A DNA stretch of 64,000 bases from Hyphomicrobiales bacterium (GTDB lineage Bacteria > Pseudomonadota > Alphaproteobacteria > Rhizobiales > Rhizobiaceae): assembly GCA_900466875.1 (NCBI GenBank), contig UBNQ01000023.1:62001-126000 (forward strand), given 5' to 3'. Below the pieces are notes generated by a model that did no database searches, was not told the origin of the DNA, and was given only the letters and a program-made list of their open reading frames with translations. Positions 795 through 40,854 of this stretch are shown piece by piece. Numbering within the stretch: the stretch's first letter is position 1; every line of letters starts with the position of its first letter. Made by a program: the position numbers and the translations under genes.

Positions 795-1613
795 GTGACC
801 TCTGGAACGCTCTCTTTTTTCGCGCTTTTCAGCGCTGCCGTCGCGTCAATGGCGGCTCCGGCCGTTGCTGCCGAACCGGTGCATTGCACCGTTATTCTCG
901 ATATCGAGACCGGCAAGCCCATCCACCGGCAGGGCGAATGCGATCACGCCATTTACCCGCAATCGACCTTCAAGCTGCCGCTGGCGATGATGGGCTATGA
1001 CAAGGGTATTCTTGTGGATGAGCACAATCCCCGCTGGGCCTATCAGGCGAAGTTCAAGCGCTCTGAGCGGGAGCAGAAGGCGACCGACCCGACCATATGG
1101 GAAAAGGATTCGATCGTCTGGTATTCCCAGGAGATCACCCGTCGCCTCGGAAAGCAGGCTTTCGCCGATTACATCCGTCGCTTCGATTACGGCAATCGCG
1201 ATGTTTCCGGTGGACCGGGCGGCACCGATGGCCTGACGGAATCCTGGCTGAGTTCGTCGCTGAAAATCTCGCCCGATCAGCAGGTGGACTTTCTGCGGCG
1301 CTTCATGACCGGCAAGCTGCCGATCTCGACAAAGGCCGTGACGATGACGCAGGCGATCGTGCCGAGCTTCAGTGCCGCAGATGGCTGGACAATCCACGGA
1401 AAGACGGGCGCCGGCTCCGTTCGAAACGGCCAGGGAAAGCTCGATGGCAGTCGCCCGGTCGGCTGGTTCGTAGGCTGGGCGCAGAAGGGAGACCGCAAGG
1501 TCGTCTTCGCGCGTTTGCTGGTGGACAACAAGCGCCATGCAGACAAGCCGATCAGCTTTACCGTGCGTGACGGGCTGATCGCGGATCTGCCGAAACTGAC
1601 CTCTAACCGTTGA
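795..1613 (+). CDS. Class D (OXA-type) beta-lactamase
   Basis: Periplasmic serine beta-lactamase that hydrolyses penicillins and related beta-lactams. The 272-residue product starts with GTG at 795; an in-frame TGA at 786-788 excludes a longer frame, and GGAG at 781-784 can serve as the ribosome site. Residues 1-26 form a Sec signal peptide ending AVAA. All class D landmarks are visible: the nucleophile motif STFK at 57-60 (Ser57, carboxylated Lys60), SIV at 106-108, YGN at 132-134, Trp151, KTG at 203-205 and GWFVGW near 227. Length is normal for OXA enzymes. No regulator gene adjoins it, and neighbours are unrelated, so it is probably a resident chromosomal gene. It could also be an OXA-like penicillin-binding protein homologue, but the complete motif set favours a true beta-lactamase. 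Confidence 0.9.
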   Translation: MTSGTLSFFALFSAAVASMAAPAVAAEPVHCTVILDIETGKPIHRQGECDHAIYPQSTFKLPLAMMGYDKGILVDEHNPRWAYQAKFKRSEREQKATDPTIWEKDSIVWYSQEITRRLGKQAFADYIRRFDYGNRDVSGGPGGTDGLTESWLSSSLKISPDQQVDFLRRFMTGKLPISTKAVTMTQAIVPSFSAADGWTIHGKTGAGSVRNGQGKLDGSRPVGWFVGWAQKGDRKVVFARLLVDNKRHADKPISFTVRDGLIADLPKLTSNR

Positions 1614-10803: not shown

Positions 10804-11742
10804 ATGAACCTCTATGCAGTCTTCAACCGCGACGGCGGGACGTTTCGAACGACAGACATGGACGCCTATTGCGCCCATGCGCTGAGGGCGTTCGAAGGCG
10901 CAGGGCATGAGATCGAATGCCATGTCGTTTCCGGCGACAAGGTTGTCGAGACGATGGAAAAGGCGGCCTCGCTTTCCGGCGTCGATGGACTGATCGCCGG
11001 CGGTGGCGACGGCACGATTTCCGCTGCCTCCTCGATTGCCTGGAAGAGCGGCATCGCGCTTGGCATCGTTCCGGCCGGCACGATGAACCTGTTTGCCCGC
11101 TCGCTGAAGATCCCGCTGGATATCTGGGAGGCCATCGACGTTCTTTCCCACTCGCATGTCCGCGATGTCGATATCGCCAGCGCCAATGGCCGAAGCTTCG
11201 TCCACCAGTTTTCCGCCGGCCTGCATGCCCGCATGGTGCGTTACCGCAATTCCATGACGTTTGCGTCGAGGCTCGGAAAAATCCGCGCCAGCACCCGCGC
11301 CGCCATCGGCGTCATGCTCAACCCGCCGGAATTCGAAGTCGAATTTACCGCAGAGGGCAAGAGTGGCGTGCGCCGGGTATCGGCAATTTCGGTATCCAAC
11401 AACGAGTTCGGCACCGATGCGCTGATGTATGCCGATGACGTCACGCAAGGCCATCTCGGTTTCTACATCGCCGATCCGCTGACGCCGGCCGGCGTGGCGA
11501 AACTCACGCTCGATATCCTGCGCGGCCGCCTGAAGGACAACGAATCGGTGACGGCGATGACCGTCACCGAGCTGGAACTGCATTTCCCCCGCCACCGCAA
11601 GGATGTCCGCTGCGTCATCGACGGCGAGCTGCTGCCGATGGAACGCGATATCCTGCTGAAAATCCATGCGGGCGAACTGAAGGTTCTCGTCGATCAGCTT
11701 CCGCAGAAGGACATCGGGGAGCAGAGCGGCAGCGGCATCTGA
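10804..11742 (+). CDS. Diacylglycerol/lipid kinase-family protein (DAGK catalytic domain)
   Basis: A 312-residue soluble kinase of the DAGK_cat (YegS/sphingosine kinase-like) family that phosphorylates a lipid hydroxyl using ATP. The nucleotide-binding motif GGGDGT is at 66-71 and the following PAGTMN motif at 90-95; the C-terminal beta-sandwich has the conserved VIDGEL(L) stretch around 278-283, where substrate contacts are made. Length matches bacterial members. It reads convergently with the MscS channel, with only 7 bases between stop codons. The actual lipid (diacylglycerol, ceramide or another) cannot be told from sequence. Confidence 0.88.
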   Translation: MNLYAVFNRDGGTFRTTDMDAYCAHALRAFEGAGHEIECHVVSGDKVVETMEKAASLSGVDGLIAGGGDGTISAASSIAWKSGIALGIVPAGTMNLFARSLKIPLDIWEAIDVLSHSHVRDVDIASANGRSFVHQFSAGLHARMVRYRNSMTFASRLGKIRASTRAAIGVMLNPPEFEVEFTAEGKSGVRRVSAISVSNNEFGTDALMYADDVTQGHLGFYIADPLTPAGVAKLTLDILRGRLKDNESVTAMTVTELELHFPRHRKDVRCVIDGELLPMERDILLKIHAGELKVLVDQLPQKDIGEQSGSGI

Positions 11743-11749
11743 ACCGGTA

Positions 11750-14110
11750 TCAGGCAGATGCGACCGGCGCGAGCGGCGGAAGCATCGTCGCGGCCGCCGC
11801 ATCGTCATGGATCGTGTCGCCGCGCGACCTCACCGTCACCGCATTGGAGGCGAATTCCAGCCCTGCCGCCTTGCAGGACGAGATCAGCCTCTTGATCGCC
11901 TCGCGCTTGATGATGCTCGGATTGCCCGGCAGCGAGGTGAACTTGAAGCGCACCACGATCGAGGTCTCGGTAATATCCTGAATGCCCTGCATCTTCAGCG
12001 GCACGAGGAAATCCGCGCCGAATTCCGGATCGTCGAGCATTGAGATGCCGACCTTCTTGGCCGTCTTGCGGATCAGTTCGGGATCGCTGTCCCGCTCGAA
12101 CTTCAGCTGGAACTTGATCGTGCCCCAGTCGCGGCTGTAATTGCTGACCGAGCTGATCTGCCCGAAAGGAACCGTGTGAACCGGGCCATTGTGATGGCGC
12201 AGCCGAACCGAGCGGATGGCGATCTGTTCCACCGTGCCCTGCTGGCTGCCGGTGCTGATATATTCGCCGATGCGAAAAGCATCTTCGGCGATGAAGAAGA
12301 TGCCGGAGACGATATCCTTCACCAGCGCCTGCGAGCCGAAGGACAAAGCCAGACCCAGCACGCCGAAACCGGCAAGCAGCGGCGCAACGTTGACGCCAAG
12401 CGCGCTCAGCACAACCAGCGCCCCGACGGCCAGCACGGCTCCGAGCGCCAGATTGCGCACCACCGGCATCGCCGTCGACAGCCGGCTGGTCTGGCGTTTT
12501 TCGTTCTGGTCTTCGTGCCCCGGCAGCATGATGGCGGGCGAGGGGGCAAGCGCTTCCGAATAACGCCAGATGAAACTCGCCACCGCCCAGCTTGCCACGA
12601 TCGCAAGGCTCAACCGTTCGAGCCAGAGGATCCAGCCCGTCGCATCCGCCGCCTGTCCGCCCATGAAGGGTGACCAGATGGCCGTGATGAGATGCAAGCC
12701 ACCGATCCAGACCGCCCCGGCGCACAGCACTCTCAGGCTTGCCAGAAGCGAGGATGCGAGGCCCGCGCCGTGAACCCGTTCATGATGCCGGGTGATATCG
12801 TCGACGAGCGCATGCGCCCCGAGCGCCAGGATCGGCAGCGCCAGCAGGGCCATCTGCGTCGTACCGGCGGCAAAGATCCAGCGGGCGCTGTTCGGCGTTC
12901 CGGCAAACAGCACGCAGATCAGCCACAGCGCCAGCGCCGTGACGACGTAGAATTCCGGCAAGAGATTTCCCGCCGCCCGGCGCACGATGCCGGGATTATG
13001 GCTGATGAAGGCATCGCGGATATCGTTGCGCCCGCCGATGAACCAGACGAGTTTCAACAGCGTCAGCAGCGTATTGCCGGTCAGGAACCAGCCGTCGATG
13101 ACCAGCCTGTCTATCCCGATACTGTCGGCAAGGCGCGCCATCTCGGCCAGCGCCGCGCTGATCAGCCCATAGGTCACCAGCATGCGGAAGTGCCATTGCG
13201 GTCTGCGGATCGGCACGAGGCTGCGCCCGTCGCGGTTTTTCTTGAACAACAGCCGGGCAAGCGACACATAAAGCGACGCGACGATGACAGCGGTGACGAT
13301 GCCCCGCACCATCTGCGCCGTGGCTTCCCCCGGTGTCCCGATGAGGTCGAGGGCAAACCGCGCTGCCATGAGGAAAAACGCGATCGAGGCGAGATCGCCG
13401 ATCATCCGCTTCAGGCTCTGCCCGATGATACCGGTAACCCGCAAAGCCTGTGGGGTCTCGCGAGTGATGACGCCTGCGATCAGCCGCCGCAGGATGAGCG
13501 TCGCTGCCGCCGCGGCTGCGATCGTGGCAAGGGCGAGAACCAGCACACGCCCATGGCTGCTGCCTTCCTCGGTAAGCTTGTCGTCGGCCATCACCATCGC
13601 CGTGGGCAGGCTGCCGACACCGGCAAGCGCGGTTGTCGCGCCGCGCATGAAGGCCGCCGAAAACTGGCTCCACTTCGCCATGCCCATATCGGTCGCCATC
13701 ATTTCAGGCGTCGGGGTCATCGGCGCGGGAGCGGAAGCCGGAGCCTGAGTTGGTGGCGGCGCAGCGGCTGCGTTCGCAGATGTAGGTGTCGCCGGTGGTT
13801 GGGAAGCAGGCACGGCACCGTTCGTTGCGGCGGCCGCGTTATCGGTTGGCGTCGGGCCGGATACGACGGCAGCCGGTTGTGCGGCGATTGTGCCTCCCGA
13901 TGAGGTCGCCGTTGCCTGCCCGACTTCGATCGCCACGGCCCGACCGCTTCGTGTCGCAAAATCGAGAATCTGCTCGACATCGGCAGTGCTCTGGCCGGGA
14001 TGGACGATGATCTTGAGCGGTATGTCGTCAGCTCTGGAAATACTGCCAGAGGCGACAGTGAAGACGAGAGCGATAAAGGCGGTGCGAAGAAATGCGAAAA
14101 TCATGTCCAT
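11750..14110 (-). CDS. Large mechanosensitive channel of the MscS family
   Basis: A 786-residue membrane protein with a signal peptide (residues 1-27, ending SRA), a periplasmic region that includes a Pro/Ala/Thr-rich low-complexity linker (about 90-150), about eleven hydrophobic helices, and a C-terminal MscS core. The pore helix region GFGVLGLALSFGSQALVKDIVSGIFF and the beta-domain follow in order, with the usual EDAFRIGEYI entrance to the soluble vestibule. Such large MscS-like proteins (YbdG/MscK size class) open on osmotic downshock. I chose ATG 14110 because it gives a compact signal peptide; an ATG at 14161 would add 17 residues before it. A possible second start lies two codons later at 14104. 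Confidence 0.88.
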   Translation of the reverse strand: MDMIFAFLRTAFIALVFTVASGSISRADDIPLKIIVHPGQSTADVEQILDFATRSGRAVAIEVGQATATSSGGTIAAQPAAVVSGPTPTDNAAAATNGAVPASQPPATPTSANAAAAPPPTQAPASAPAPMTPTPEMMATDMGMAKWSQFSAAFMRGATTALAGVGSLPTAMVMADDKLTEEGSSHGRVLVLALATIAAAAAATLILRRLIAGVITRETPQALRVTGIIGQSLKRMIGDLASIAFFLMAARFALDLIGTPGEATAQMVRGIVTAVIVASLYVSLARLLFKKNRDGRSLVPIRRPQWHFRMLVTYGLISAALAEMARLADSIGIDRLVIDGWFLTGNTLLTLLKLVWFIGGRNDIRDAFISHNPGIVRRAAGNLLPEFYVVTALALWLICVLFAGTPNSARWIFAAGTTQMALLALPILALGAHALVDDITRHHERVHGAGLASSLLASLRVLCAGAVWIGGLHLITAIWSPFMGGQAADATGWILWLERLSLAIVASWAVASFIWRYSEALAPSPAIMLPGHEDQNEKRQTSRLSTAMPVVRNLALGAVLAVGALVVLSALGVNVAPLLAGFGVLGLALSFGSQALVKDIVSGIFFIAEDAFRIGEYISTGSQQGTVEQIAIRSVRLRHHNGPVHTVPFGQISSVSNYSRDWGTIKFQLKFERDSDPELIRKTAKKVGISMLDDPEFGADFLVPLKMQGIQDITETSIVVRFKFTSLPGNPSIIKREAIKRLISSCKAAGLEFASNAVTVRSRGDTIHDDAAAATMLPPLAPVASA

Positions 14111-17031: not shown

Positions 17032-18588
17032 TTACCTCTTGAGATCCATCACTGCGTAGCCGAAGCGATACTGATCCGTCGGACGACCCCATTGATAGGG
17101 ATAGCCCACGATCGCGACATCCTGAGGCTTCGTGGTAATCCCTTGCTCGAGCAGATATGCGGAGTACTGCTTGTCGAAGGCGATGGGCATGCTGCCGTCC
17201 TTGGTGCGCCAGACGAAGACGATCCGGTCGAATTCCGCAAGCGGCCGGTTCTTCATCGAAGGCGGCGGTGGTTCCACGGCGACCGGCAGGCTGGGCAGGT
17301 TGAAGTGCAGGTTGCCCGCAAGCTGCCTGTCCGAAGCGACGACGACCGTGTTGGCGCCCGATGCCTTTTCCGCAACCGTCCTGGAAAGGGCGGCAAACGG
17401 AATGTTGACGTAACCGTAATTGCCGTTGATCCGGCCCATATTGGCGCGAACCGCCAGCGCGGTCGGGATCAGCAGCATGATGATGATCGCCACGCCCCAT
17501 AGTCGCTTGAGGCTCACCTCGACCGGGATTTTGGCGGCATCCACCTTCAGTGCAAGGTAGAGCGGCGTTGCCAGAAGAAGCGGTGTCAGCCAGCGGTCGC
17601 GAACGTTTTCAAAGCCTGCAAACAGGATCATCAGCACGATCAGCCCGAGCGACAGGACCAGAATGCGGCCGACAAGACGCGTCCACCGGCTTCTGGCGCG
17701 CATGATGGCCTTGATGTATTCGCGATAGACGGCCGCAAAGATGATCGCGGTGAGCGCCACGAAACTGAAGAAACCGATGGTCAGCGAACCAAGACCGCTG
17801 GCGATTCCTCCAATCAGCCCCGCATCGTCACCGGCAAGCTTTTTCAATGTGCCCTGGCTTGCATCGTTGAAATTGTCGAGAAGCCACAGGGCATGGGGCG
17901 TTACGATCGCCAGCGCAAGGATTGCCGCCGGCAGCAGTTTCCACGAAAGCACCGTGCGGCGCATCTCGCGATCCATCAGCACGGCCAGCCCGGCTGCGAT
18001 CGGCAGAACGGCGAAATTGTATTTGGTGATGCCACCGATGCCGGTGGCGATGCCGAAGATCAGGAAGGCGAGCAGTGACGGCCTGGAGATGACCCGGAGC
18101 AGGGCATAAAGGAAGAAGGATGCGCCGAAGATGGCGGCGACGGTATGGGACAGATCGCGCTGCGCCTCGAACGAGATCTGCGGAACGGTCAGCAGTCCGA
18201 GTGCCGCGATCACCGCAAGCCGCTTGTCTTCCAGCACCTGCCGTGCCGCGAGATAATAGAACATGTAGGAGAGGAAGAGCATCAGCCCTTTCAGCCCCGA
18301 AAGCGTCACGATCGAGATGCCGAAAATCTTGATCGCGCCATGCTGCAGCCAGTTATAGAAAGGCGGCTGCGCCCCGTAACCCGGCAGAAGCCACTGGGAG
18401 ACATAGACCTGTTCGGCCTCGTCCAGTTCCAATCCATGCGGAATAATGAAGCGCACGACGACCTGGACAATGAAATAGGCGGCAAGAACGAGTGCAAGCG
18501 TCTGTCCGGCACCGAGCCGGTCGGCGACAGCCGGCATGGCTTGGGCGCGTCGTGGAGAGGAAATTTTCGGCAAGCTTATCTCCGGCAT
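17032..18588 (-). CDS. GT39-type (ArnT/RgtA-like) membrane glycosyltransferase
   Basis: A 518-residue GT-C enzyme that uses a polyprenyl-phosphate sugar on the periplasmic side. It has about eleven to twelve hydrophobic helices after a cytosolic N-terminus, and the catalytic acidic pair in the first periplasmic loop is visible as DEAEQ (Asp56, Glu57). The next segment SQWLLPGYGAQPPFYNW is shared almost exactly with the neighbouring gene, so the two are tandem paralogues. The soluble C-terminal domain (about 390-518) is typical of the family. It lies 17 bases after that paralogue in an apparent operand of three genes with a GT2 transferase. In Rhizobium, close relatives (RgtA/B/C) add galacturonic acid to the LPS core; that role here is an inference. 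Confidence 0.88.
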   Translation of the reverse strand: MPEISLPKISSPRRAQAMPAVADRLGAGQTLALVLAAYFIVQVVVRFIIPHGLELDEAEQVYVSQWLLPGYGAQPPFYNWLQHGAIKIFGISIVTLSGLKGLMLFLSYMFYYLAARQVLEDKRLAVIAALGLLTVPQISFEAQRDLSHTVAAIFGASFFLYALLRVISRPSLLAFLIFGIATGIGGITKYNFAVLPIAAGLAVLMDREMRRTVLSWKLLPAAILALAIVTPHALWLLDNFNDASQGTLKKLAGDDAGLIGGIASGLGSLTIGFFSFVALTAIIFAAVYREYIKAIMRARSRWTRLVGRILVLSLGLIVLMILFAGFENVRDRWLTPLLLATPLYLALKVDAAKIPVEVSLKRLWGVAIIIMLLIPTALAVRANMGRINGNYGYVNIPFAALSRTVAEKASGANTVVVASDRQLAGNLHFNLPSLPVAVEPPPPSMKNRPLAEFDRIVFVWRTKDGSMPIAFDKQYSAYLLEQGITTKPQDVAIVGYPYQWGRPTDQYRFGYAVMDLKR

Positions 18589-18605
18589 TGGCCCCAGAGG
18601 GCCTC

Positions 18606-20123
18606 TTAGTCCTGATCCTGCGGATCCGCGATCCAGGCGTAGTTGAAGTGTTCCGTGTCGCGCCCGCCCGAATACGGGTAGGGAACCACCATCGTTTTGG
18701 TGACAAGAGCGGCAGAGTCAATGCCGTTTGCGCGCAGAAATCCGTCGAGTTCTGCTGGCAGCGCGCTTGTCTGCGCACTGTTCCAGATCACCAGCCCGCG
18801 GTTTTGCCCGGTGATGAAGGCGGCCGAGCGCCTGATGCCGGGTTGCGCCACCGGGATTTCCGGGGCGTTGATGCGCGCGGCGGCAGCCAGCGCCATACCA
18901 TCGGCGACGATGAAATTCGGACGACTGTCCGAACCGGCGTCTGCAAGCACCTGGCGAACGAAAGGGACCGAAGGAAAGCTGTCCTTCTGGTAGCGCCCGT
19001 GAAATGGTGCAAGCATGTTGCCGGCGGTCAGGTAAAGCAGGAAACCAAACGCGAGCAGCGAGGTTGGCACGGCAAGAACCGCGACTGCCTGCGGACGCCG
19101 TACGAAACCGCCCGCGGCCTCGATCTTCAGACAGAGATAAAGCGGCAGGATCAGAAGGAAGGGGGACAGCCATTTCTGGCTGATCGTCGTTGCTCCCATG
19201 CCGAAGGAAATCAGGCCGACGATCAACAGGCACAGCAGGAACATACGGCCGGTCACCCGCGTCCAGAGCGTCTCCGTCCGCCAACAGGCCCAGACTTCGC
19301 GACCGAAGGCAATTGCCAGGAAAGCGATCACCGGCAGGGCGCCTTCTACGGCAGCGCCGATCAGGGATGTGATGCCGTCGAGGCGGTCAACGATAAAATG
19401 CCCAGTTGGATCGTCCCGCATCTCGTCGATCGTGTCTGCGGTGGCCGTGTCGATATTGCCGAGGAACCACAATGCATGCGGCAGACAGATGAGCGCCGCA
19501 ACCGTGATCGTCGCGATCATCCGGCGATCGAACAGGCGGCGGCGCAGCTCCGCTTCCGGCAGAATGGCAAGGATTGCCGCAATCGGCACGACGACGAAAT
19601 TGTATTTCGAAATCAGACCTATGCCGATCGCAAGCCCGGTCAGCGCATAACGCCAGAGTGCCGGATGCTTCAACGCACCGAGAAAACCGTAGAGAAACAG
19701 CGAGACGCAGAACAGCAGGGCCACCGCATGGCTGAGGTCGCGTTGTGACAGCACCGCAACGGCCGGCAGCGCCAGCACGCCGAGCATGGCGGCAGCCGCG
19801 ACCTCTTTGCGGTCGCTGATCTGCCTGGCCGCCAGGCCGACGAAGAGACAACAGAGAAACAGAAGGCTGTTCTTCAGCACCGTCAGCGCGAAGATCGAAG
19901 GGCCGATCAGGTGGATGACGCCGTATTGAAGCCAGTTGTAGAAGGGCGGCTGGCGCCCGTAACCCAGCAGCAGATACTGCGACATGACGATCTGCTCGGC
20001 TTCGTCGGCCTGCAGGCCTTCGGTGCGCAATACCCGCAATACGATCGCGACCAGACAATAGGCCGCGATCAGCCAGAGCACGCGCTCCGGCTTCAGTGTC
20101 AGGGCGTCACGCAGCCGGCGCAT
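18606..20123 (-). CDS. GT39-type (ArnT/RgtA-like) membrane glycosyltransferase, tandem paralogue
   Basis: A 505-residue GT-C glycosyltransferase, paralogous to its downstream neighbour. The acidic pair in the first periplasmic loop is Asp40-Glu41 in ADEAEQIVMSQYLL, followed by GYGRQPPFYNWLQYG. About ten helices are visible, with a smaller C-terminal soluble domain. The start ATG at 20123 lies inside the 3' end of the GT2 gene (17 bases of overlap), with GAGAGG upstream, so translation is probably coupled. Together the three genes would make and use a polyprenyl-linked sugar. RgtA-type galacturonosyltransferases or ArnT-type aminoarabinose transferases of lipid A are the main options; the RgtE-like partner favours the former. 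Confidence 0.88.
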   Translation of the reverse strand: MRRLRDALTLKPERVLWLIAAYCLVAIVLRVLRTEGLQADEAEQIVMSQYLLLGYGRQPPFYNWLQYGVIHLIGPSIFALTVLKNSLLFLCCLFVGLAARQISDRKEVAAAAMLGVLALPAVAVLSQRDLSHAVALLFCVSLFLYGFLGALKHPALWRYALTGLAIGIGLISKYNFVVVPIAAILAILPEAELRRRLFDRRMIATITVAALICLPHALWFLGNIDTATADTIDEMRDDPTGHFIVDRLDGITSLIGAAVEGALPVIAFLAIAFGREVWACWRTETLWTRVTGRMFLLCLLIVGLISFGMGATTISQKWLSPFLLILPLYLCLKIEAAGGFVRRPQAVAVLAVPTSLLAFGFLLYLTAGNMLAPFHGRYQKDSFPSVPFVRQVLADAGSDSRPNFIVADGMALAAAARINAPEIPVAQPGIRRSAAFITGQNRGLVIWNSAQTSALPAELDGFLRANGIDSAALVTKTMVVPYPYSGGRDTEHFNYAWIADPQDQD

Positions 20124-21126
20124 CGGTCTGATAGACCTCTCTGACGATATAGCTGAGCGCCGTATCCTCGCGGTAATAGGTGCGCGCGATCATTTCGGCC
20201 AGAATGCCGGTCGTGATCATCTGTACGGCCGACAGGAAGAGCATGACGCCGATCAGAAACAGTGGCCGGGTGCCGATATCGTTGCCCATGATGAACTTGT
20301 CGATGAACAGGTAGAAGAGGATCAGCGCCGAGATGCCCCCCAGGCCGAGGCCCAGCGAACCGAAGAAATGCCCCGGCCGCGCCTTGAAGCGCATGAAGAA
20401 CATCACTGACAGAAGATCGAGGATGACCCGGAAAGTGCGGGAAATGCCGTATTTGGAAACGCCGTGCTGGCGGGCATGGTGTGTCACCGGCATTTCGCCG
20501 ATCCGCGAGCTCGGCACGACGCCGGCGACCCAGGCGGGGATGAAGCGGTGCATCTCACCCATCAGCTTCACCTGCTTGATCACCGCCGAGCGGTATATCT
20601 TCAGCGAACAGCCGTAGTCGTGAAGGCGCACACCGGTGATGCGGCCGATCAGTCGGTTGGCGATGAAGGACGGCACTTTGCGCAGGAACAGGCCATCCTG
20701 GCGGTTCTGGCGCCAGCCGACGAGCAGGTCGAGTTCGCGGCGCTCGAGCTCCGCGACCATGTGGGGAATGTCCTTGGGATCGTTCTGCAGGTCGCCGTCA
20801 AGCGTGGCGATCAGCCGGCCCTCGGCCTGGTTGATGCCGGCCTGCATGGCGGCCGTCTGGCCGAAATTGCGTTGCAGCGCGACGATCTTGAGATCGAGAC
20901 CCGGGCGGTTCAACGCTGTTCGCGCGTTGGTGATCGTCGCATCCGTGCTGCCGTCATCGACGAGGATCAGCTCCCAACTGGCGGGGTAGCCGGCCATGGA
21001 GGTTACGATACGCTCGATCAGCGGGTTGACGCTTTCCTCTTCGTTGAAAAGCGGCACGACCAGCGACAGTTCGATCGGATTGGGCGTCTCGACGAGGCGG
21101 GTGACCGACTCTGCTGTTGTACCCAC
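20107..21126 (-). CDS. Polyprenyl-phosphate glycosyltransferase (GT2, RgtE/ArnC/GtrB-like)
   Basis: A 339-residue family 2 glycosyltransferase that moves a sugar from its nucleotide form to undecaprenyl or dodecaprenyl phosphate on the cytosolic face. The nucleotide-binding VDDGSTD is at 56-62 and the metal-binding DGDLQND (DxD) at 110-116; a conserved HHARQHGVSKYG segment follows near 220-230. Two C-terminal helices (about 258-280 and 293-320) anchor it, as in GtrB and ArnC. It is the first gene of the three-gene minus-strand operon, overlapping the next gene, and thus likely supplies the lipid-linked donor to the two GT39 enzymes. The sugar is not identified; galacturonate is suggested by the rhizobial context. 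Confidence 0.9.
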   Translation of the reverse strand: MGTTAESVTRLVETPNPIELSLVVPLFNEEESVNPLIERIVTSMAGYPASWELILVDDGSTDATITNARTALNRPGLDLKIVALQRNFGQTAAMQAGINQAEGRLIATLDGDLQNDPKDIPHMVAELERRELDLLVGWRQNRQDGLFLRKVPSFIANRLIGRITGVRLHDYGCSLKIYRSAVIKQVKLMGEMHRFIPAWVAGVVPSSRIGEMPVTHHARQHGVSKYGISRTFRVILDLLSVMFFMRFKARPGHFFGSLGLGLGGISALILFYLFIDKFIMGNDIGTRPLFLIGVMLFLSAVQMITTGILAEMIARTYYREDTALSYIVREVYQTDAPAA

Positions 21127-21225
21127 TGTGGGTTTCTCCTAGAAGTGCGGGCTTGAACGGACGGCGCGTCACGGCGCAGCATCCTCGCATAGACCCGGGT
21201 TTATCGCATTGAGGCCACCTACTAT

Positions 21226-22182
21226 ATGAAGAATTATTGCGTTGCCAGCCAGAGAGCGTGGATAATTCGTAACGCAATGACGCTGCTGACACTCGCGATC
21301 GTTGTCTTTTATGCGCTATTCATCCAGTGGATCTGGGGCTGGCAGAGCGTTCTGGCTTTATGGGAAAGCGCCGGCATCGGTTCGGCGCTGATCGCTCTGG
21401 CGGCATTGCTCGGCACCTACGTCCTGCGCACCTGGCGCATCTACGACTATTTCCCGGCCGAGACCGGCGGTCATTTCGGCACGCTGCTGCGTCTCACCCA
21501 GGTGCATAATCTGCTCAACATCATGCTTCCTTTCCGCTCCGGCGAGGCGAGTTTTCCGCTCTTGATGAAACGCGAATTCGACCTGTCGCTCGCACGCAGC
21601 ACGGCCGCACTGTTCGTCATGCGGCTTTTCGACCTGCATGCCCTTCTCGCCGCAGCCGGTATCGGCCTGATTCTGCAGCACCGGACGGTCTGGGCCTGGG
21701 CGCTCTGGTTTGCCTTTCTCATCCTGCCGATTGCAGGTTTTGCCCTGCGTCGCATCGGCCTGGAGCTTGCGGCAAGAATCCTGCCCGCAAAGGCCGGCAA
21801 GCTTCTGACGGAAGTCGAGGCCGGTCTTCCGGTCGGTGCCGCAGCCTTCGCCCGCGCCTGGGGTGCGACGCTGATCAACTGGTTCACCAAGATCGCGGTT
21901 CTGGCCTGGGTGCTCGGCCTGCTTGGCGGTCTGTCGATCGCCCAGGGTTTTGGCGGCGCGCTCGGTGGCGAACTCTCTTCCGTCCTGCCGGTCCATGCTC
22001 CCGCCGGCGTCGGAACCTATCCCGCCGGCATAAGCGCCGGCGCCATCGCCTTTGGTGCGCCAGCCACGGGGCCGGCTCTGGAAGAGCTCGGTCAGGCGGC
22101 CGTCAACACCCACCTCCTCGTCATCGTCTCCTCGCTGATCGGCACGGCGCTATCGCTGTTTGTGGCGAGGGGAAAGGGGTAG
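21226..22182 (+). CDS. UPF0104/lysylphosphatidylglycerol synthase-type membrane protein
   Basis: A 318-residue multi-helix membrane protein of the UPF0104 (LPG_synthase_TM) superfamily, which has been proposed to flip or move polyprenyl or phospholipid head groups. About eight helices are visible; conserved family residues appear in the HNLLNIMLPFRSGEASFPLLMKR region (near 91-115) and in VHAPAGVGTYPAG (near 255-270). The ATG at 21226 has a poor ribosome site; an in-frame ATG at 21277 would still keep all helices. It is divergent from the GT2-GT39 operon with about 100 bases between starts, so a role in the same lipid-linked sugar pathway is plausible but unproven. A second member of this superfamily is at 39886. 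Confidence 0.85.
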   Translation: MKNYCVASQRAWIIRNAMTLLTLAIVVFYALFIQWIWGWQSVLALWESAGIGSALIALAALLGTYVLRTWRIYDYFPAETGGHFGTLLRLTQVHNLLNIMLPFRSGEASFPLLMKREFDLSLARSTAALFVMRLFDLHALLAAAGIGLILQHRTVWAWALWFAFLILPIAGFALRRIGLELAARILPAKAGKLLTEVEAGLPVGAAAFARAWGATLINWFTKIAVLAWVLGLLGGLSIAQGFGGALGGELSSVLPVHAPAGVGTYPAGISAGAIAFGAPATGPALEELGQAAVNTHLLVIVSSLIGTALSLFVARGKG

Positions 22183-22187
22183 GTTAT

Positions 22188-22586
22188 CTACTGTGCCTGG
22201 ATCAGCGTTAGTCCGAGATGTTCGGCCATTGGCCTGAAATCCTTGTCTTTCTGCAGCAGGCTGTAACCGTGTTCTATGCAAAAAGTGCCGATGATGAGGT
22301 CGGGCGTCTTGCTGACTGTCCTGCCGTGCTCCCGCAGGATCCGGTAATTGCGCGCCGCCTTGACAGCAAGATCGGGTGAAAGCATCGCAACGACTTGATA
22401 TCTTCCGAGCGCTTTGCGGATATTCGCAGCGTTCCGATCGCTCCGTGCGCCACGAAGGATCTCAAGCAAGACGATGTCTCCGAGGATTATGTCATCATAA
22501 TCGTCGATTTTATCCAGTTCTCGGGTTTCCGGCGTATCGAAGTCATGCAGTCTTGAAATCCAGACGGAACTGTCGACCACGATCAT
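22188..22586 (-). CDS. vapC: VapC toxin, PIN-domain ribonuclease
   Basis: A 132-residue PIN-domain endoribonuclease. The acidic metal site is complete: Asp5 (VVDSSVW), Glu42 (LLEILRG), Asp96 (TPDLIIG) and Asp114/Asp116 (KDKDF). It is the downstream member of a type II toxin-antitoxin pair: its start ATG overlaps the stop of the vapB gene by four bases (ATGA). Typical VapC enzymes cut tRNA or rRNA when the antitoxin is lost. The convergent UPF0104 gene ends five bases away. The specific RNA target is not known. Confidence 0.93.
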   Translation of the reverse strand: MIVVDSSVWISRLHDFDTPETRELDKIDDYDDIILGDIVLLEILRGARSDRNAANIRKALGRYQVVAMLSPDLAVKAARNYRILREHGRTVSKTPDLIIGTFCIEHGYSLLQKDKDFRPMAEHLGLTLIQAQ

Positions 22587-22822
22587 TCGGCAGCATCTTG
22601 TTTATCCGGCAACAAGGGCGCATCGGGGTCTATGTCTCGGCGCATCTCATCCAGATCGCCTTCCCAGCCAAGCCCGCGCAATTCTTCCCAGGCCTTCTTA
22701 CGGCCGAGATGGCGCACGAAATGCTCAAGCGCGGCTTCGACAACGGCTTTCTTGGTCTTGAGGCCACTCAGTTCCAGTGCATCAGTCACCAGCGTCTCAT
22801 CGATATCGATATTGGTACGCAT
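22583..22822 (-). CDS. vapB: VapB-type antitoxin of the vapBC pair
   Basis: A 79-residue antitoxin of the type II (VapB/DUF2191) family. The N-terminal half MRTNIDIDETLVTDALELSG forms the DNA-binding ribbon-helix-helix-like segment, and the C-terminal half (about 45-79), which includes a GLGWEGDLDEMR stretch with conserved Trp, is the usual toxin-embracing tail. It is the first gene of the pair and overlaps vapC by ATGA. The upstream region to 22881 shows no clear inverted repeat, in contrast to the neighbouring antitoxin gene. It is a paralogue of the gene at 22882-23163, sharing the N-terminal MRTNI and GLxTKKAxV segments. Confidence 0.9.
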   Translation of the reverse strand: MRTNIDIDETLVTDALELSGLKTKKAVVEAALEHFVRHLGRKKAWEELRGLGWEGDLDEMRRDIDPDAPLLPDKQDAAE

Positions 22823-22881
22823 GCATAACGGCCTAATTTGTTGAGTTCAGAATTATAAGCCAAATGAAGACGGCGACAAAG

Positions 22882-23163
22882 TCATTGTTTGTCGCGTCCC
22901 TCGCGCATCAACGTCTCCGATGGCGTATGATCTCTGTCGCGGGTCAGTGCGCGGAACTCGGCTGAAAGTGTCTCCAAGGTCGGGCGACCATACTCCGTGT
23001 TGTCCCAGCCGATACCTTCGAGATTATCGATTGCGCGCAACTGTTTCTGGATTCGCACGAAGTCTCGGAGTGCCTGATCGACGGCGGCTTTCTTGGTTGG
23101 CAAGCCACCGAGTTCCATGGCTTCGGCGATCAGGTCGTCATCCAATTCGATATTGGTACGCAT
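22882..23163 (-). CDS. Solo VapB-type antitoxin
   Basis: A 93-residue protein homologous to the antitoxin of the downstream pair (MRTNIELDDDLIAEAMELGG at the N-terminus, KKAAVDQALRDFV after it, and a GIGWDNTEYG segment like the GLGWEGDL of its neighbour). No toxin gene follows it: the next gene downstream is the separate vapB. It has its own promoter region, with a perfect 17-bp inverted repeat starting four bases before its start codon. It is either an orphan antitoxin whose toxin was lost, or an accessory antitoxin. The C-terminal tail (DRDHTPSETLMREGRD) is longer than that of the paired VapB. Confidence 0.82.
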   Translation of the reverse strand: MRTNIELDDDLIAEAMELGGLPTKKAAVDQALRDFVRIQKQLRAIDNLEGIGWDNTEYGRPTLETLSAEFRALTRDRDHTPSETLMREGRDKQ

Positions 23164-39885: not shown

Positions 39886-40854
39886 ATGACGAAGAAGAAG
39901 TTTTTCACCTACGCGATGCTGGCCATAGGCTTCGGCCTTGCAGCCTGGCTTCTTTATCAGGTTTTTCGCGAGCACTCGCCCTCGGAAATCCTCCAGTCCG
40001 TCCGCGACATCCCGGCAACCAATCTGGCACTTGCGCTGCTGTTTGCGTTTGCATCCTATCTCTGCCTCACCGGCTTCGACTGGTGCGGCGTGCGGTATGT
40101 GAAGAACGACCTGCCTTATCCGAAAATCGCGCTCGCGTCCTTCATTGCGCTATCGATCGGCCAGAGCGTCGGCATGTCGGGCCTCAGCAGTGGCGCGCTG
40201 CGTTATCGCTATTATGCCCATTGGGGCATGACCACCGAGGATGTGGCGAAGATCGTGCTGCTCTCTGGCGTCACCGTTGGCCTGGGCATGGCCGTTCTCG
40301 CCGGCATCGTCATGGTAATCAATCCGCAGGATGCCGCCGCAGTACTTCGATTGAAGGAGGAGGTCGTCATTGCGATCGGCGCGGGCTGCCTTGTCGCAAC
40401 AGCGCTCTATGTGGCGTTGGCCGCATTTCTTCGCACGCCTCTTAAAATCCGCAGCTGGACCTTCCAGATGCCCACCTGGAAGATCGCTGTGGCGCAGGTA
40501 ATGATCGGCACGATCAACTTCGCCTTCGTTTCCGCCTGCCTTCGCGAGGTCATGGCGGCGGGCGCCGATGTCAGTTATCTGAAGGCCGCGACCGCCTTCG
40601 TCCTCGCCAACGTCGCGATCCTCATCACCCATGCGCCGGGTGGGCTCGGCGTTCTGGAAGCGACGGTTCGCCATGTCATGGGCGATCAGGCCTCGATCGG
40701 CTCTTTGGTCGCCTTCCGGGTGATCTACTTCTTCATCCCGCTTTTCATCGGCCTGCCACTCTCGCTTATCGTCGAGGCGATATTCCGGGCAAGGAAATCA
40801 CGAAACCCGGAAAATGAGACAAACCACGCGTCGATTGCCGCCAAGCCTGCCTGA
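39886..40854 (+). CDS. UPF0104/lysylphosphatidylglycerol synthase-type membrane protein
   Basis: A 322-residue integral membrane protein with eight to nine predicted helices, of the same superfamily as the protein at 21226 (LPG synthetase membrane domain without the aminoacyl transferase part). Recognisable family features are the paired SIGQSVGMSGLSSGALRYRYYAHWG segment (near 85-110) and THAPGGLGVLEATV (near 247-260). It lacks a C-terminal catalytic domain, so it is not an LPG synthase itself. Its proposed role is lipid or polyprenyl translocation. It follows smpB by 260 bases on the same strand and converges with an NYN nuclease gene. Confidence 0.85.
   Translation: MTKKKFFTYAMLAIGFGLAAWLLYQVFREHSPSEILQSVRDIPATNLALALLFAFASYLCLTGFDWCGVRYVKNDLPYPKIALASFIALSIGQSVGMSGLSSGALRYRYYAHWGMTTEDVAKIVLLSGVTVGLGMAVLAGIVMVINPQDAAAVLRLKEEVVIAIGAGCLVATALYVALAAFLRTPLKIRSWTFQMPTWKIAVAQVMIGTINFAFVSACLREVMAAGADVSYLKAATAFVLANVAILITHAPGGLGVLEATVRHVMGDQASIGSLVAFRVIYFFIPLFIGLPLSLIVEAIFRARKSRNPENETNHASIAAKPA

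Follow-up and report, generated by a model that had tools for sequence, protein, structure and literature searches.

Introduction

How a sugar borne on polyprenyl phosphate crosses the bacterial inner membrane is poorly understood, and the question is raised by four genes in a stretch of 64,000 nucleotides from a Hyphomicrobiales bacterium of the Rhizobiaceae (GCA_900466875.1, contig UBNQ01000023.1, positions 62,001 to 126,000), hereafter the window. An earlier note on this DNA had described a cluster of one GT2 glycosyltransferase, two paralogous GT39 enzymes in tandem and a divergent UPF0104 membrane protein, had likened it to the rhizobial RgtE/RgtA-C system and had named the UPF0104 protein as a candidate translocator. 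All four open reading frames (ORFs) were found where they had been placed, the best Pfam match of each agreeing with the description and lying over its own cut-off; the UPF0104 gene does run opposite to the other three, and the two GT39s are indeed paralogues, with 37% identity over approximately 500 amino acids (aa). The set probably encodes a three-component Rgt-type periplasmic glycosylation system in which the UPF0104 protein would flip the polyprenyl-phosphate sugar, a reading carried by the gene set and its conservation, by the folds of the UPF0104 protein and GT39a and by the observation that UPF0104 is a steadier companion of the GT2 than are the GT39s. The features are as follows.

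17032-18588, minus strand: GT39a, a GT-C glycosyltransferase and predicted periplasmic transferase (518 aa; PMT_2/PF13231, 64.7 bits)
18606-20123, minus strand: GT39b, the paralogous GT-C glycosyltransferase (505 aa; PMT_2/PF13231, 57.9 bits)
20107-21126, minus strand: GT2, an RgtE/ArnC/GtrB-type polyprenyl-phosphate sugar transferase and probable RgtE ortholog (339 aa; Glycos_transf_2/PF00535, 98 bits)
21127-21225: presumed shared promoter region between the divergent starts of GT2 and UPF0104 (99 bp; from the coordinates and a reading of the sequence)
21226-22182, plus strand: UPF0104 membrane protein, candidate polyprenyl-phosphate-sugar translocator (318 aa; LPG_synthase_TM/PF03706, 61.2 bits)

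The GT2 and GT39b genes overlap by 17 nt and a gap of 17 nt separates GT39b from GT39a. GT39a and GT39b are the only two PMT_2 matches in the window genome (E≤0.001), and likewise the only two matches to the GT39 alignment (E≤1e-6). The UPF0104 protein clears the curated Pfam cut-off of 33.4 bits and is one of four PF03706 matches in the genome, together with a second protein in the window, one at C44:228357 and an 880-aa MprF/LpiA-like protein. The second PF03706 protein of the window (39886-40854, plus strand) is of another type, with an HAPGGLG..E motif.

Conservation of the UPF0104-GT2 pair

In a sample of 121 genomes of the family, UPF0104 matches were detected in 24, of which 22 (the window genome included) are strong relatives at ≥50% identity and two are weak. 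A GT2 at or above the threshold of 61% identity was found in exactly those 22 genomes, and the next tier of GT2s, at 41-43% identity, comes from four genomes, two of them being the genomes with a weak UPF0104. The loci of the strong relatives were fetched, and in 21 of 21 the GT2 and one to three GT39s adjoin UPF0104, an arrangement that is far above chance. Across the family loci identity to the window proteins is 60-92% for the GT2 and 36-53% for the GT39s, the nearest named relatives being from Neorhizobium with 89-91% for the GT2 and 76-81% for UPF0104 (one sequence being partial).

Such neighbourhoods would also be seen if UPF0104 were a bystander with an unrelated role in lipid transport that old synteny has kept beside the rgt genes, and the genes on either side of the cluster, which encode an AMP nucleosidase, a class III aminotransferase and a glutamine synthetase-like protein, are likewise conserved at many loci. 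The AMP nucleosidase gene, however, lies in the fetched stretch of 13 of the 21 relatives and is missing from 8 (one stretch ending at a contig end), and in those 8 the UPF0104/GT2/GT39 core persists despite the changed flank. The genome-by-genome coincidence of UPF0104 and GT2 in the family sample also speaks against a bystander. Further evidence comes from named genomes, which were scanned with the GT2 alignment so that the loci are independent of selection for UPF0104. Among the best 80 of 588 loci, 27 are close (L086-L112, from Rhizobium, Neorhizobium, Ensifer, Xaviernesmea and two records titled Rhizobiales bacterium) and 53 are distant, being by title mostly Beta- and Gammaproteobacteria together with three Mesorhizobium and one planctomycete. 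UPF0104 was present at all 27 close loci, within 300 bp of the GT2 in 24 and farther away, with one GT39 intervening, in three. It was also present at 40 of the 53 distant loci (32 within 300 bp, six more within 2.5 kb and two farther), lying co-directionally upstream of the GT2 in 34 of these 40 rather than divergently, which is a further point against inherited synteny. The remaining 13 distant loci, at which UPF0104 was not detected, favour the bystander explanation, which taken with the rest of the evidence is very unlikely.

The GT39s are less constant companions. In five of the 27 close loci, all from Rhizobium (L094, L098, L100, L107 and L112), the UPF0104-GT2 pair is kept and no GT39 was found alongside. 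The turnover of the GT39s against the faithful pairing of UPF0104 with the GT2 therefore points to action of UPF0104 on the GT2 product. In a sample of 299 genomes of the phylum, in most of which at most seven first-look candidates were scored such that weak UPF0104 matches may be missed, a window-type UPF0104 was found at E≤1e-15 in eight, and all eight lie near a GT2 scoring above 450 bits, at a spacing of ≤125 bp in six and approximately 1.85 kb in two. A GT2 at E≤1e-40 was found in 110 of the 299 genomes. Those scoring 424 bits or less were without a window-type UPF0104 at E≤1e-15 among the candidates scored, and because of this we take the UPF0104 link to be limited to one GT2 subfamily rather than to extend to all RgtE-like GT2s.

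Several of the more distant loci have features of their own. At the gammaproteobacterial locus L113 an ArnT-like enzyme and a PAP2 phosphatase are encoded downstream of the UPF0104-GT2 pair (11026-13367), and the betaproteobacterial locus L125 has a GT2, an ArnT-like enzyme and a PAP2 protein (10978-13108) with no UPF0104 detected, the ArnT-like and PAP2 genes in both resembling a pair that dephosphorylates and then glycosylates lipid A. The planctomycete Neorhodopirellula (L144, 9863-12496) has a GT2-GT39 pair of the same class with no UPF0104 neighbour detected, which suggests that the pair either is old or has passed from one phylum to another. In Mesorhizobium loti the locus adjoining UPF0104 (L128) has a PMT_2 enzyme, and the GT39 alignment found nothing there at E≤1e-6. 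Another GT2 of M. loti (G122:C4) was considered as a possible member of the published rgtE-rgtF-lpxE cluster and set aside, since PgfS is its better NCBIfam match and the genes that follow encode a two-component system.

Fold and pocket of the UPF0104 protein

The pairing raises the question of what kind of protein UPF0104 is. No PDB sequence was matched by the profile of UPF0104 at an E limit of 1 or by that of the GT39s at a limit of 0.1, and because of this fold searches were needed. The AlphaFold2 model of the window UPF0104 (predicted local distance difference test, pLDDT, 89) was compared with 997 aligned chains, among which six entries for the MprF flippase domain score Z 13.2-14.8 over 249-262 residues, with the next match at 5.7. 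The top three Foldseek matches are likewise all MprF. Profile-profile comparison with a broad PF03706 profile containing MprF gave a probability of 97.8% over 315 columns. As modelled, the window UPF0104 thus shares the fold of the MprF flippase domain. At 318 aa it has no further Pfam domain and hence is without the C-terminal synthase domain of MprF.

MprF acts on a cationic lipid. In RtMprF the residues N117, D234, S238 and R304 are described as lining a cavity on the cytosolic side around the head group of lysyl-phosphatidylglycerol (Lys-PG) with F155 contacting the head, the barrier being an R304-E280 pair and the cavity being electronegative and suited to cationic heads (PMC8131360). For comparison with these residues, 49 close and 40 distant GT2-linked UPF0104 proteins were aligned in MAFFT with the MprF of the window genome and its two other UPF0104 proteins, the 49 close sequences including a few genomes twice (G029 and L086, for example, are one locus). 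A second alignment was made at the level of profiles, for which comparison of window-type UPF0104 with single UPF0104 or MprF proteins in hhalign proved too weak for residue mapping and was replaced by a profile of 19 other PF03706 proteins. In the resulting columns H257, P259, G261, P266 and H296 of UPF0104 fall on H271, P273, G275, E280 and R304 of RtMprF, with H296, P266 and H257 placed consistently by both methods. H94 as the equivalent of N117 was found by MAFFT and not by the profile alignment, and was not used.

By these alignments the pocket of the window protein would differ from that of MprF in both its lining and its gate. K222 is lysine in 89 of 89 GT2-linked UPF0104 proteins and maps to the D234/S238 turn of RtMprF, falling on D234 by MAFFT and on S238 by profile alignment (with N218 on D234), such that its predicted position is claimed only to the region, within one helix turn. 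The turn reads N218/K222 in the window protein with loss of the acid, and N218 is kept in 25 of the 40 distant proteins. Since the RtMprF cavity is electronegative and suits cationic heads, the gained lysine fits an anionic phosphate-uronate cargo. At the gate, H296 is histidine in 86 of the 89 proteins, the other three having gaps, and from the aligned sequences the change from arginine to histidine may also suit an anionic cargo. The E280-R304 ion pair is absent from the window protein (P266 and H296), and because of this it is not filed as an MprF. The GT2-linked UPF0104 proteins also keep R68, R71, R104 and E107 with few or no exceptions, and the MprF of the window genome has none of the four.

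The GT2, the GT39s and the sugar

The two enzyme types belong to families in which a sugar is loaded on a polyprenyl phosphate and then transferred. The profile of the GT2 family finds ArnC (1.8e-58), sll0501 (6.4e-43), which we take to be GtrB, and dolichol-phosphate mannose synthase (DPMS; 3e-16) among PDB sequences. Both GT39s have a PMT_2 domain over the cut-off, and the GT-C fold was modelled for GT39a (AlphaFold2, pLDDT 87.7), whose best PDB match is ArnT 5f15 (Foldseek E 5.6e-9; VIA Z 27.2 over 422 residues). The GT39 pair D56-E57 is invariant across 32 aligned sequences. With ArnT as the best structural match of GT39a and the ArnC equivalog NF007986 as the best NCBIfam match of the GT2, the cluster might be read as part of the aminoarabinose pathway of lipid A (Arn). 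The ArnC score is, however, 184.4 bits against a cut-off of 529, neither GT39 matches an NCBIfam family at E≤0.001 and none of six flanking proteins scanned is of Arn type (no search for such genes was made in the rest of the genome), and an Arn identity is hardly credible.

The likeness to the RgtE/RgtA-C system is better founded. In R. leguminosarum rgtA, rgtB and rgtC are presumably RL1471, RL1469 and RL1468, and the order rgtA-rgtE-rgtB-rgtC with rgtD elsewhere, as we assume it to be, fits the layout in R. phaseoli and R. ecuadorense. In these two species and in R. chutanense the locus has UPF0104 beside a run of GT39-GT2-GT39-GT39. Searching with the GT2 alignment at E≤1e-20 gave a single match in R. 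phaseoli, a single one in R. ecuadorense and two in the window genome, the second of these being weak (97.5 bits). Each of the two Rhizobium genomes has four GT39 matches, of which three lie at this locus and the fourth, a weak one, lies at another place. The window GT2 shares 77% identity with the one GT2 of RgtE class in R. phaseoli, beside which UPF0104 (64%) and three GT39s (38-42%) are encoded, and the likeness drawn in the earlier note is borne out to this extent. The window locus thus probably corresponds to the rhizobial rgtE locus, a judgement from sequence and gene order in which the orthology of the GT2 with RgtE rests on uniqueness and gene order. In a GT39 tree, GT39b groups with GT39s of Neorhizobium and Ensifer on the same side as GT39s one and two from the R. 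phaseoli group (99/99), and GT39a with that of Neorhizobium alkalisoli and, less surely, with the third GT39 of the group (91/91). Branches in this tree are long and a deep fork is left open, and neither GT39 of the window is assigned to RgtA, RgtB or RgtC. Since the GT39s are too diverged, the acceptor sites of RgtA, RgtB and RgtC are not transferable to them.

The same divergence of the GT39s bears on the sugar. The GT2 of this organism could load a sugar other than galacturonic acid (GalA) and the GT39s could decorate another acceptor, in keeping with which many Beta- and Gammaproteobacteria, as judged by record title, have GT2s with 54-64% identity to the query and without a product known to us. 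The close identity of the window GT2 to the probable RgtE of R. phaseoli and the similar gene order argue for GalA, and no NCBIfam equivalog cut-off for another sugar was reached by the window GT2. A different sugar is on balance doubtful, with some real chance of being correct.

Proposed pathway

The GT2, the probable RgtE ortholog, would load a sugar, most likely GalA, onto polyprenyl phosphate at the cytosolic face. The resulting polyprenyl-phosphate sugar would be moved to the periplasmic leaflet by the UPF0104 protein, a flippase module of MprF type that has no synthase domain, and there GT39b and GT39a, as ArnT-like GT-C enzymes, would transfer the sugar to two different sites, probably in the core of lipopolysaccharide (LPS) or in lipid A. 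Synthase and GT-C transferase genes are encoded together in the window, with the UPF0104 protein as the flippase that we infer. Its candidacy as translocator, raised in the earlier note, is strengthened by the 27/27 close and 40/53 distant loci, by the MprF fold and, less firmly, by the pocket residues.

Similar gene neighbourhoods would be expected if UPF0104 served the same pathway in another way, returning spent polyprenyl phosphate to the cytosolic leaflet or scrambling lipids in general while another protein (such as an SMR or DedA protein) exports the donor. The MprF of P. aeruginosa is reported to be a promiscuous scramblase (PMC11980842), and conserved basic residues such as K222 are equally suited to bare polyprenyl phosphate. 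The window genome also encodes, at another place, an SMR protein that passes the Pfam cut-off. In all it has two SMR-family (PF00893) matches, neither on the contig of the window, which is a point against this explanation and speaks mildly against an EmrE-like partner. Carrier recycling would in addition serve many pathways, and the tight pairing with one GT2 subfamily would therefore be left unexplained. Recycling or scrambling is for these reasons unlikely, and export of the loaded carrier by UPF0104 is preferred.

A more specific form of the export proposal is put forward tentatively, as plausible and somewhat short of probable. A separate subfamily of UPF0104, with members in Rhizobiaceae, in Mesorhizobium and in many Beta- and Gammaproteobacteria, would be the dedicated translocator for one subfamily of RgtE-class GT2s, with the MprF pocket rebuilt around an invariant lysine and a histidine for anionic cargo, and would be the missing flippase for LPS GalA in place of the EmrE-like protein that the earlier note gives as proposed for the known system.

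A number of observations weigh against export by UPF0104 or against its more specific form. The glutamate of the MprF gate is replaced by proline (P266) in 46 of the 49 close UPF0104 proteins; in the 40 distant proteins it is kept in 37, with histidine at the R304 position in 38. D136 is invariant in 89 of 89 and falls in the profile alignment on F155 of RtMprF, which contacts the head group, such that the pocket is not simply basic. The UPF0104 model has no Foldseek match at E≤0.001, the best being 9.8e-3, and the profile match to the MprF of the window genome alone has a probability of only 0.7%. Among the 13 distant GT2 loci at which UPF0104 was not detected, 10 are flanked on each side by 3 kb of sequence or more, and the lower-scoring GT2s of the phylum sample without a window-type UPF0104 count in the same direction. 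A mirror-tree comparison of 35 loci and the window, with no permutation control, gave a partial correlation of 0.56, which is only suggestive. The SMR proteins encoded elsewhere in the genome belong here too, the search for small translocators having covered the SMR family.

Other genes in the window

A VapBC toxin-antitoxin pair (22188-23163, minus strand) separates the UPF0104 gene from that of the AMP nucleosidase, and its VapC reaches NF047959. In the same-genus locus L033 a VapB match with 49% identity stands at the corresponding place. The window also holds a class D beta-lactamase gene (795-1613, plus strand; NF000270, 327 bits against a cut-off of 280).

Comparison with known systems

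A strongly linked and structurally recognisable candidate, for which individual residues can be named, makes the membrane-crossing step testable in a genetically tractable Rhizobium pathway. If the proposal is true, the range of the MprF lipid-transport domain extends from amino-acylated phospholipids to isoprenoid-linked sugars. To our knowledge the published Rgt system has no proven flippase. A search of open-licence papers in PubMed Central, outside which most subscription papers lie, found none joining UPF0104 to the Rgt system. RgtE of R. leguminosarum is given as RL1470 (PMC7663294), and RL1470 is reported to be important for root colonisation (PMC11103875), because of which a UPF0104 flippase would be expected to matter as well.

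The nearest counterpart is the Rgt system itself, in which dodecaprenyl-phosphate-GalA is the donor in R. leguminosarum and R. etli. As in the window there is one GT2 with tandem ArnT-like GT39s, and in R. phaseoli UPF0104 stands divergently beside the cluster just as it does here; unlike the R. phaseoli locus, with its three GT39s, the window has two and these are 38-42% identical to their counterparts. The ArnC-ArnEF-ArnT and GtrB-GtrA-Gtr systems likewise comprise a polyprenyl-phosphate sugar synthase, a GT-C transferase and an intermediate membrane protein (PMC11127046; PMC7389260). In the systems as described there the translocator is a small protein of SMR, GtrA or MATE type rather than an MprF-type protein, and for several of the small SMR- and MATE-type candidates direct evidence of flippase activity is said to be lacking (PMC11127046).

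MprF/LpiA, the bifunctional Lys-PG synthase and flippase, shares with the window UPF0104 its fold and an H-x-P-x-G-x-G loop, and differs from it in having the synthase domain and in reading D234/S238, R304 and E280 where the window protein reads N218/K222, H296 and P266. In P. aeruginosa the GpgSDF set for glucosaminyl-phosphatidylglycerol also joins sugar-lipid enzymes to a UPF0104 protein, GpgF, which is a predicted and unproven flippase for the glycophospholipid (PMC12713373). Its cargo is a glycosylated phospholipid and not a polyprenyl-phosphate sugar, and the three genes as described include no GT39. A role of UPF0104/COG0392 proteins as flippases in glycosylation was predicted in 2015 by Makarova and colleagues from archaeal neighbourhoods of AglD with PMT/STT3 enzymes (PMC5898192). 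In these AglD/arCOG00899 neighbourhoods UPF0104 is described as fused or adjacent to a GT2 near a PMT/STT3-like enzyme, much as in the window, and the archaeal pathway is one of N-glycosylation, whereas the system here is proteobacterial and probably directed to LPS.

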